Shown here piece after piece: positions 21,499-45,815 of a DNA stretch of 64,000 nt. Made by a program: the position numbers and the translations under genes. The DNA lies in contig DS995299.1 in assembly GCA_000156155.1 (NCBI GenBank), positions 149,827 to 213,826 of the forward strand. The letters run 5' to 3'. Origin of the DNA: a beta proteobacterium KB13. GTDB lineage: Bacteria > Pseudomonadota > Gammaproteobacteria > Burkholderiales > Methylophilaceae. The notes under the pieces are model-generated. The model did no database searches, was not told the origin of the DNA, and was given only the letters and a program-made list of their open reading frames with translations. How positions within the stretch are numbered: the stretch's first letter is position 1; each line of letters opens with the position of its first letter.

Positions 21499-21777
21499 CC
21501 AAGTTAGCCGGGCAGTCGCTATTTATAGAGGAAAGTCCGGGCTCCGAAGAGCATGGTGTTGGCTAACAGCCAACCATTGTGAAATGAGGAATAGGGCCAC
21601 AGAGACGAGCGTATTTAGTTACGGTGAAACGCGGTAACCTCCACCAGGAGCAAGGCCAAATAGGATGACGATAGTATGGCTCGTACTGTCATCGGGTAGG
21701 CCGCTAGAGATGATGAGTAATCATTATTCAAGATGAATGACTGCACAAATACAGAACCCGGCTTATAGGCTAACTTA
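21499..21777 (+). ncRNA. rnpB: RNase P RNA (class A)
   Basis: Hallmark sequences are present: the 5' GAGGAAAGTCCGGGCTCC core, GGAATAGGGCCACAGAGACGAG, the GGTGAAACGCGGTAACC stem-loop and the 3' ACAGAACCCGGCTTATAGGC. The outer helix P1 forms between AAGTTAGCC (21500-21508) and GGCTAACTT (21768-21776). About 279 nt is short for a class A RNA (E. coli 377 nt), suggesting trimmed peripheral helices. It is the catalytic part of tRNA 5'-end processing. A terminator follows. Confidence 0.96.
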
Positions 21778-21790
21778 TTGACTTCATTAA

Positions 21791-42652: not shown

Positions 42653-43519
42653 TTAGTTTTTTCCTTTGATTAATGTACCTACACCTTGATTGGTTAAAAT
42701 TTCTAATAACAATGCATGCTCAACTCTGCCGTCAATGATATGTACACTATTGACTCCGCCTTTTGCAGCATCCATAGCCGATTCTATTTTAGGCAACATG
42801 CCACCACTTAATGTGCCATCTTTAATCAATGATTCAATATCATTTGGCTTAATTCCTGTAATCAGATTATTTTGATTATCAAGTACACCTTTGGTGTTAG
42901 TCATAAGGATTAATTTTTCTGCCATGAGAACTTCAGCTAACTTGCCTGCAACAACATCTGCATTAATGTTGTATGTTTTTCCATCTGAACCAATTCCAAT
43001 TGGAGCTATTACAGGAATAAAGTCACCAGTATCTAGAAAATCGATGAGGCTGGGATCGATGGACTCAATTTTACCCACATAACCAAGGTCTATTTTTTTC
43101 CCATCTTTGTCTTTATCAAGCTTTGAAGCATGAATGAAGTTTCCATCTTGCCCGGTAAGGCCCACTGCTTTTCCACCATGAATATTTATTTGATGAACAA
43201 TTTCTTTATTTATTTGACCTCCTAAAATCATTTCCACAACATCCATGGTCTCTTCATCAGTCACTCTTACCCCGTTAATAAATTCGCCCTTCTTGCCGAT
43301 TTTCTCTAGGTGTTCATTGATCTGTGGACCACCTCCATGTACAACAACTGGATTCATACCCACTAATTTCAATAACACTACATCCATAGCAAAAGAGCTC
43401 TTTAGTTGCTCATCTATCATTGCGTTGCCACCAAACTTAATCACAATGGTTTTATCAAAAAATTGCTTTATGTAAGGTAATGCTTCACTAAGTATTTTTG
43501 CTTTGTCGTTAGGTGCCAT
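42653..43519 (-). CDS. argB: Acetylglutamate kinase ArgB
   Basis: 288 residues. Amino-acid kinase fold: [17 protein letters not shown], the [12 protein letters not shown] segment and [10 protein letters not shown] near the C-terminus. Phosphorylates N-acetylglutamate, the second step of arginine synthesis. Its ATG shares one base with the argA stop (TAATG), so the two are translationally coupled. Confidence 0.96.
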
Positions 43520-45021
43520 TATTGCTCCAATTCCTTTAAAAATATTTTTGAATTTCGTTGTGGGGAGTATTCCCTTTTTTTCACATCTGGCAAATCATTA
43601 ATATTGCCTTGTTTAAAATCATTTTCCATAAACCAGTGGCTGGATTGAGTTGTCATAATAAATGTCTTGTTATTCACTTTTTTACACTCATTTTCACAAT
43701 ATTCTAAAAGTTTTTTCCCATAACCCATGTTTTGGTAATTTTCATTTATTGCAAAACAGGCAATTTCAGAAATTCCATCATAATGGTTAACTTGGGCACA
43801 CCCAAGTATCTTATTATCAAATTCTAAAATGTGGAAATGTTGTATTTCCATCTCTATCTTTTCAATACTCCTGTCTGCAATGATTTGAGTCTGTATTAGG
43901 GGATTAATCATTTTTTCAATTACTTTGGCGTCTTGTATCTTGGCAGACCTAAATTTTTCTATTTTTTCTGGTGTAATGACAGTTCCTTGTCCCTGGTTAG
44001 TGAATAATTCCATAATTAATGAACCATTTATGTGTCTATTTACTAAATGAATCTTTGCTAAGCCTTCTTTTAAACCTTGAGCCGCACCTTCTAATATTGG
44101 TAGTGTATTTTTTTCTATAAATTCTGGATGCTCTGATTCTTTGATATGGGATATCAAATTGTTCAATTTGATGCTCGTCATTTCAGATATAAATTCACCT
44201 CTGATATTTTGAACCCCATTATTTTCAGTGATATAAATTAATTTTTCAGCCTGAATTGAAGAAGCAATTTTACTTGCCGATGATTCAAAGGATAAATTAA
44301 AGATTTCCCCAATAGGAGAGTATCCAATAGGGGACATGATCACGATTTCATTGTGGTTAAGTTTTTCAATGATTGCTTCATGATTAATCTCCCTAATAAC
44401 TCCCGTCTGTTCCATATCAACTCCATCAATAACTCCTCTAGGTTTTGCCATAAGAAAATTGCCAGATGAAATTTTCAACTCACTCTTAAAAATATTATTG
44501 TGGTAAATGTTGGAAGATAAAGCTGCCTCAATTTTTGTCTTAACCAACCCATTAGCCTCAATAATATGAGGCATCATCTCTTCTGTTGTAATTCTTTGAT
44601 GCTTATGAAAGCTTGATTTAATATTATTTTTATCCAATCTTAAGTCGATAAAAGGCCTGATGCCATGAATTAGGATGATTTTAATCCCTAAGGAGTGAAG
44701 TAGATTAATGTCCGTACATAAATTAACAAAAGAGTTGCTCTCAAGAGCAAAACCGTCAAATGCAATAACGAAAATCTTATTTCTATAATGATGAATATAT
44801 GGCGCAGCCGATCTAAAGGCTGATATAAAGTCGACACTGGATTGTCCCACTAAATTATCAATGGAGACTTTGAAGTAATTTGAATATTTCATTAGAACAG
44901 GCAAGGAAGGTTTCAGCTTTCCTTGTTCTATTTTCGAAAGATTGCCAGGATCTAAATCAAGGATTTGACTAAGGTTGGCAATAGTTAACTTTCTATCGGT
45001 TCTAAGTTGTTTAAGATTCAT
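43519..45021 (-). CDS. argA: N-acetylglutamate synthase ArgA with N-terminal XRE helix-turn-helix domain
   Basis: 500 residues. Residues 1-60 form an XRE/Cro-type helix-turn-helix ([20 protein letters not shown] ... [13 protein letters not shown]). From about 64 on, it follows classical ArgA: amino-acid-kinase-like domain (64-345; [33 protein letters not shown]) that binds arginine for feedback, and a GNAT acetyltransferase domain (about 360-495; acetyl-CoA loop QNMGYG at 430-435). ArgA proteins are usually about 440 residues without the HTH. The frame is continuous, so this is a true fusion. The start is ATG 45021 without a visible SD, overlapped by a dyad. It may be both first enzyme and DNA-binding regulator of the arg unit. 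Confidence 0.88.
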
Positions 45022-45078
45022 ATTGTATATTTTACAATATTTATATTTAATTTTATATAAATATATGTATTTTATACA
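45020..45078. promoter_or_regulatory. argA promoter with three evenly spaced dyads
   Basis: Dyad A: ATATTGTA (45020-45027) / TACAATAT (45033-45040), centre 45030. Dyad B: ATATTTATAT (45037-45046) / ATATAAATAT (45055-45064), centre 45050.5. Dyad C: TGTAT (45066-45070) / ATACA (45074-45078), centre 45072. A and C share TGTA-N5-TACA. A minus-strand promoter TTGTAT (45079-45074), 16-bp spacer, TATAAA (45057-45052) lies across B and C, and A covers the argA start codon. It fits cooperative binding of a dimeric HTH protein; AT-only arms in B may be chance. Confidence 0.5.
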
Positions 45079-45815
45079 AAATTATTGGTTAAGGCTAATA
45101 TCGCACTTGCAATTGATAAGGAAGCGGTCTCAGTTCGCAATACTCTTTTACCTAAAGATAGTGATTTGAAACCAGCATTTTCAGCAACTTTGATTTCAGC
45201 CTCTGAAAAACCCCCTTCAGGTCCGATTAAAATTTGAAAACTTTTTTTATTTATTAAATCATTATTTCTTAAATTTGATAGTGAGTAATCTGTGTAGGGG
45301 TTCAAAATTAACTTGCATGAATGATCATCTTCATTGGTTAACTTATTTAAACCAAGAATTGTTTCATGAACGGTTGGTATTTTTGACCGTCCGCTCTGCT
45401 CGCATGCAGAGATTACGACTTTTTTAAGATGCTCAATTCTATTTTCTATTTTGCTTTGAGGAATTTTAAAGTTCACCCTTTCGGTATTAATCAAATAGAA
45501 ATTTTTTATTCCTAGTTCTGTATTCTTCTGAAAAATAAAGTCAAGTTTATCTCGAGAGGTTACTGATTGCAGGATGCTTATATCAATAACTGCTTCACTA
45601 GCGTTGTGTTTTTTTTCATTAACAGCAATCTTGACGTTTTTTTTATCAATGTCAGATACCTCTCCATGATAATCAAATCCATCACCATTAAATAATATAA
45701 TCTTGTCTGATGGCTTTAATCGCAATGACTTAACAAGGTGCTTTGAGGCGTCTTCAGAAAGATTGATTTCGCTATGTGCTGAAATAGTATCAGGATGGTA
45801 AAATCTATTCATCAT
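45072..45815 (-). CDS. rsmE: 16S rRNA m3U1498 methyltransferase RsmE
   Basis: 247 residues. N-terminal PUA-like domain (about 1-70; FYHPD, DASKHLVKSLRLKPSDK) and a SPOUT methyltransferase knot with IGPEGGFSEAEI and LSLGKRVLRTETASL. Its last bases overlap dyad C of the argA promoter. It is divergent from the next gene with only 23 bp between starts. Confidence 0.95.
   Translation of the reverse strand: MMNRFYHPDTISAHSEINLSEDASKHLVKSLRLKPSDKIILFNGDGFDYHGEVSDIDKKNVKIAVNEKKHNASEAVIDISILQSVTSRDKLDFIFQKNTELGIKNFYLINTERVNFKIPQSKIENRIEHLKKVVISACEQSGRSKIPTVHETILGLNKLTNEDDHSCKLILNPYTDYSLSNLRNNDLINKKSFQILIGPEGGFSEAEIKVAENAGFKSLSLGKRVLRTETASLSIASAILALTNNFV

Follow-up and report, generated by a model that had tools for sequence, protein, structure and literature searches.

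The argA locus and its product

The window, that is, the whole 64,000-nucleotide stretch of DNA analysed here and to which all coordinates refer, belongs to a complete 1.33-Mb genome whose near relatives are the Methylophilaceae isolates LSUCC0717, LSUCC0665 and LSUCC0401, which we take to be OM43-like methylotrophs. We assume the Methylophilaceae to be methanol-using bacteria, and the family presumably includes the streamlined marine OM43-like lineages. The minus strand carries rsmE (45072–45815), the upstream neighbour of argA, followed by argA itself (43519–45021), argB (N-acetylglutamate kinase, 42653–43519) and a gene for a HAD-type nucleotidase. The argA stop codon and the argB start codon overlap in the sequence TAATG (43519–43521), and the two genes are therefore likely to form one operon served by one promoter. 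This argA–argB adjacency was found in the window's genus and not in the other families sampled. The only Rfam match of the window is a bacterial class A RNase P RNA (21500–21781, plus strand); within the window no Rfam family matches the argA leader.

As regards expression signals, no Shine-Dalgarno sequence is visible before argA in the window, as the initial annotation had remarked. A putative weak promoter on the minus strand may consist of a -35-like hexamer TTGTAT (45074–45079), a poor match to TTGACA, and 16 bp away a candidate -10 hexamer TATAAA (45052–45057); a generic promoter scan of the window did not have this TATAAA among its promoters.

The 500-residue ArgA protein begins with an XRE-type helix-turn-helix (HTH; aa 3–55), followed by a full N-acetylglutamate synthase (NAGS; aa 61–498). 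The enzyme passes the equivalog cut-offs of both NF003641 (472 bits, cut-off 344) and TIGR01890 (408 bits, cut-off 203) and matches PDB 2r8v with an E value of 5e-71; its AAK and GNAT domains, which span aa 61–498, are 33% identical to 2r8v/3d2p. The N-terminus matches PF01381 (HTH_3) at 35.7 bits (E 9e-9), the gathering cut-off being 23. In the predicted structure this HTH domain (aa 1–58, encoded at 44848–45021, minus strand) has five helices (residues 3–9, 14–21, 25–32, 40–50 and 54–58), the third of which is the predicted recognition helix. The top fold match of the model is the NAGS of N. gonorrhoeae, and its mean pLDDT is 84 (HTH mostly 81–90, linker region 59–72). A linker of about six residues joins the HTH to the predicted N-terminal helix of the kinase-like domain (aa 65–79; 44785–44829, minus strand).

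The arginine-binding motif of this enzyme class, E-(L/I)-(F/M)-(T/S)-X-X-G-X-G-T (PMC4490483), is intact in ArgA as E-L-F-T-x-x-G-x-G-T (aa 338–347; 43981–44010, minus strand), and residues E338, T341, G344, G346 and T347 are invariant across 46 family sequences. The N. gonorrhoeae enzyme is built of six subunits in D3 symmetry with interlaced N-terminal helices; arginine shifts these helices and thereby reshapes the hexamer (PMC4490483). In ArgA the HTH is attached to the corresponding helix, which would suit a mechanical coupling of arginine binding to DNA binding, but this argument is weakened by the longer HTH–enzyme linker found in genera other than the window's.

Distribution of the fusion and of ArgR

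The HTH-ArgA fusion is a general feature of the Methylophilaceae, present in 24 of 24 genera and in 176 of 187 genomes, including all 119 of good quality. The HTH is thus retained in every genus, and its recognition residues are near-invariant. Searches at the level of the order (399 genomes) and of the class (369 genomes) showed the synthase to be common; among the matches listed from these, where fused proteins would rank first, none outside the Methylophilaceae carries the HTH, the alignments beginning after it. A search for the C-terminal arginine-binding domain of ArgR (PF02863) found it in 0 of 187 Methylophilaceae genomes and in 8 of 14 control genomes.

Inverted repeats before argA

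The initial annotation described three dyads at about 21-bp spacing over the argA promoter and start codon. Both direct reading and a pattern search confirm that the outer two, centred at 45030 and 45072 and thus 42 bp apart, share the form TGTA-N5-TACA. The proximal one, TGTATATTTTACA (45024–45036), lies within a full perfect dyad TATTGTA-N5-TACAATA (45021–45039) and abuts the argA ATG (45019–45021); the distal one, TGTATTTTATACA (45066–45078), includes the rsmE stop codon (45072–45074) and overlaps the -35 position, the hexamer TTGTAT lying inside it. The 64-kb window has no further TGTA-N5-TACA site. A palindromic weight matrix likewise ranks them above all other sites there: the putative distal operator dyad TTTGTATAAAATACATA (45064–45080, minus strand) scores 16.9 and the putative proximal one ATTGTAAAATATACAAT (45022–45038, minus strand) scores 14.9. 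Their number, taken singly, is not beyond chance; comparison with shuffled sequence, which had been proposed as a test, gave an ordinary result for this AT-rich window (0.85 expected, and two or more in 21 of 100 shuffles). A single-site search of the window's own genome with two mismatches allowed was similarly uninformative, with 223 matches vs 267 in the reversed control. The significance of the outer dyads lies instead in their 42-bp separation and their conservation.

The middle dyad, TTTATAT-N8-ATATAAA (45040–45061, centre 45050.5), is present in the window, but it is not conserved as an operator. Only near-identical strains have it complete or with one base changed, apart from a single 14/14 occurrence in genome G020, and elsewhere in the genus it has decayed to 9–12 of 14 matches. 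Because it also coincides with the AT-rich -10 region (the TATAAA hexamer is part of it), the three-dyad model with 21-bp spacing is wrong and was dropped; the conserved arrangement is a pair.

Conservation of the paired dyads

Phylogenetic footprinting, the check suggested at the outset, shows that the outer pair is kept before argA across the Methylophilaceae. In 108 family members paired dyads with the consensus TTTG[TC]A-WWWWW-T[GA]CAAA lie upstream of the gene and flank a -10 element, and with the palindromic weight matrix 161 sites scoring at least 13 were found before 108 argA genes. This matrix was trained on argA sites; the searches with the exact window motif and with the exact paired pattern are independent of that training. 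In genera other than the window's, the exact motif occurs before argA 25 times in g34 (0.14 expected), 18 times in g35 (0.06) and four times in g22 (0.01). The exact paired pattern, sought in whole genomes, is found in 41 of 187, in one place each (its reverse-read control in one genome), and at least 36 of these 41 places lie immediately ahead of argA (27 among the 30 loci fetched, and nine more by coordinates). It lies elsewhere in four genomes (G099, G158, G159 and G186), and G189, one of the 41, is left out of the location count.

Conservation of the operator halves is strongest at TTG and CAA, the centres being simply A/T-only, a pattern that suggests protein–DNA contacts. Some lineages (most of g30, G005/G043/G044 and the G016 clade) have only a single good dyad. 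Most g30 loci (e.g. L079, L084 and L129) combine the HTH sequence DASNLSRIERG with degenerate half-sites (TTTGCAATAAAAACCAT), which suggests that their operator has been shifted or weakened.

The motif was also sought at other arginine genes, as the initial annotation had recommended. Sites scoring at least 13 are absent before argC, argG, carA and argF in some 30 genomes, and a scan that took in up to 30 genomes and about 140 genes in all (argC, argG, argJ, carA and argF) produced one site in total, a weak one before argJ; this contrast with argA is not an independent one, since the matrix was trained on argA sites. With only this one weak site at the five other arg genes scanned, an arginine-regulon box was rejected, and the autorepression proposed below would be argA-specific among the genes tested. 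Finally, none of 10 argA genes that encode an HTH-less enzyme is preceded by the motif, although these controls are mostly GC-rich and hence weak.

We also looked at covariation between the HTH and its presumed operator. HTH residue 40 (L or Q), situated after the recognition helix, varies together with base 5 of the operator (T or C), with a within-genus permutation p of 0.004. When corrected for the tree, residue 40 differs in two of six independent contrasts and residue 51 in three to four of seven; the contrasts that differ all do so in the expected direction, but they are few (2–4) and non-significant. Co-evolution was accordingly not retained as an established result, the association being a raw one that lost significance after tree correction, and we regard it as a lead, not a proof.

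Spacing and anatomy across the family

The two top-scoring sites are 28–32 bp apart in 61 genomes, 41–42 bp in 10 and 50–52 bp in 26, and no genome has a spacing of 33–40 or 43–49 bp. Ten more genomes are at 21, 60–61 or 92 bp, one of their sites being weak or far away. The classes fit about three, four and five helical turns, which is suggestive; as parsimony explains them by as few as two evolutionary changes, this helical-phase argument is a supporting rather than a decisive one. In place of the three dyads two turns apart described at first, the arrangement is one of two dyads at some three, four or five turns.

The anatomy of the promoter is also recurrent. In 77% of the genomes with a 28–33 bp spacing, a TATAAT-like hexamer follows the TTG[TC]AT of the distal dyad at a distance of 17 bp. 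The proximal dyad is close to where transcription is inferred to start, and in most genera other than that of the window it is about 18–30 bp upstream of the ATG. In an OM43 subgroup (loci L012, L014, L016–L020 and L041, from genomes G015, G024, G016, G023, G022, G018, G013 and G045) the start codon is inside the proximal operator (TTGTA or TTTGCA-N5-TGCAA), the overlap lying no more than about 10 bp from the start of argA. The protein there begins Met-Gln because ATGCAA belongs to the operator, so that operator and first codons would be constrained together.

Additional dyads are seen at some loci. Six g32 loci (L110, L114, L121, L123, L125 and L134) have a third one (e.g. TTTGCGTTTAACGCAAT) about 85 bp upstream of argA, which is about 31 bp further upstream than the distal dyad and gives three sites some three turns apart. 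At L009, L015 and L042 (genomes G010, G004 and G042) a weaker TGTC-N5-TACA-type dyad lies inside the coding end of rsmE, again with some 31 bp between it and the distal dyad downstream; it could be either a further operator or a coincidence of codons.

Alternative explanations

We consider it highly probable (about 0.83) that the outer dyads together form a bipartite operator through which the HTH protein ArgA represses its own gene. An origin by chance, as palindromes of the AT-rich gap that holds the promoter, would be compatible with the unremarkable count of TGTA-N5-TACA sites in the window alone, and the middle dyad is indeed such a palindrome. For the outer two, however, the footprint already refutes chance, the enrichment before argA in other genera reaching two orders of magnitude and the paired pattern being argA-specific genome-wide, and we give this explanation practically no weight. 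A separate transcription factor, global or arginine-related, might bind the paired dyads, the HTH of ArgA then being either vestigial or in some other role. Many XRE-type proteins bind inverted repeats, and the binder cannot be named from sequence alone. Nevertheless, the paired site is all but confined to argA, which is a poor fit to a regulator with several targets. Moreover, the near-invariance of the recognition residues and the retention of the HTH in every genus speak against it, as does the fact that the sites accompany the HTH and are absent without it (in the 10 weak, mostly GC-rich controls). A separate regulator is thus unlikely, though it is the least unlikely of these alternatives.

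The initial annotation had also raised the possibility that the innermost dyad acts in RNA, as a hairpin that masks the start codon and controls translation. The leader of the window strain does fold in this way, forming a hairpin of 8 bp whose last bases are the AU of the AUG, and the whole 79-nt leader has a folding energy of -8.7 kcal/mol (z -2.9). Across 193 sites, however, positions 5 and 13 are Watson-Crick in only 71%, with C-A in 38, and pairing in the A/T centre and among the outer bases is about as frequent as A/T composition by itself would produce. The distance from proximal dyad to ATG varies among genera, and the distal dyad, which is equally conserved, coincides in part with the -35 region and the stop codon of rsmE. 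Lacking compensatory change, the RNA hairpin was rejected as very improbable, and its formation in the window strain is a by-product of the palindrome. Only slightly less remote is the idea that HTH-ArgA replaces ArgR as a general repressor of all arg genes. In a family that has no ArgR, an enzyme that both senses arginine and binds DNA could be expected to take its place, but such a role is difficult to reconcile with the roughly 30 genomes in which argC, argG, carA and argF are without the motif and argJ has its one weak site. The preferred reading, an autoregulatory operator for the HTH of ArgA as the initial annotation had supposed, is favoured by the family-wide conservation of the pair, its restriction to argA and its absence with HTH-less enzymes.

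A proposed mechanism

Considering the NAGS-type hexamer and the invariant arginine motif, we propose an arginine-assisted autorepression of argA. ArgA is predicted to be hexameric here as well, and pairs of HTH domains on the hexamer would bind the two TTTG[TC]A-N5-T[GA]CAAA dyads on roughly the same face of the helix; paired HTHs would suit a dyad, and a hexamer, with several such pairs, would be suited to two dyads in phase. One dyad lies over the -35 region, the other at or just after the presumed transcription start (in the window, reaching the start codon). As both sites occupy core promoter positions, binding would be expected to repress, blocking the promoter of argA and, in the window's genus, of argB as well. 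Arginine is the probable signal that strengthens repression, since the HTH is joined to the very helix that arginine moves in this enzyme class. In a family that lacks ArgR, a single protein could in this way be feedback-inhibited and also repress the gene that encodes it.

There is perhaps an even chance that this amounts to a new class of arginine repressor, in which the feedback-inhibited first enzyme is itself the arginine-responsive repressor and its hexamer bridges two operators. If true, this would be a feature of the Methylophilaceae, a family lacking ArgR, with operators whole helical turns apart, and a single binding of arginine could both inhibit the enzyme and bring about repression of the gene. 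In the streamlined marine OM43-like lineages separate regulators are few. The concrete operator sequence supplied here makes the mechanism directly testable.

Comparison with known systems

HTH-ArgA shares its AAK and GNAT domains and its arginine motif with the bacteria-like NAGS of N. gonorrhoeae (PDB 2r8v/3d2p), but unlike these enzymes it has an additional XRE HTH, about 58 aa long, at its N-terminus. A review of the NAGS family mentions no HTH fusion (PMC4490483), and in the literature searched, which covered few subscription journals, we found no published account of an NAGS with an HTH or of an argA gene regulated by the enzyme that it encodes.

Enzymes that repress the genes of their own pathway are already known in PutA and BirA (PMC6978683). 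Like them, ArgA combines a metabolic enzyme and a predicted DNA-binding repressor in one polypeptide; having both catalytic domains and an arginine site, it is predicted to be an enzyme-repressor (“trigger enzyme”). An XRE–enzyme fusion architecture is reportedly also that of NadR. ArgA differs from all three in its pathway and catalytic domains and in that its predicted target is its own gene only.

With the autoregulatory repressors of the XRE/Cro-C1 type ArgA has in common the HTH_3 domain and short inverted-repeat operators that overlap promoter elements and start; here too, the conserved inverted repeats sit at promoter elements of the presumed regulator's own gene. Unlike those repressors, it has its HTH attached to a biosynthetic enzyme. 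ArgR, for its part, is a hexameric, arginine-sensing repressor that acts on paired operator sites. The physiological role predicted for HTH-ArgA is the same as that of ArgR/AhrC, but the two are unrelated in sequence, an XRE domain taking the place of the ArgR winged helix, and where ArgR/AhrC controls a regulon, HTH-ArgA has a single predicted target.
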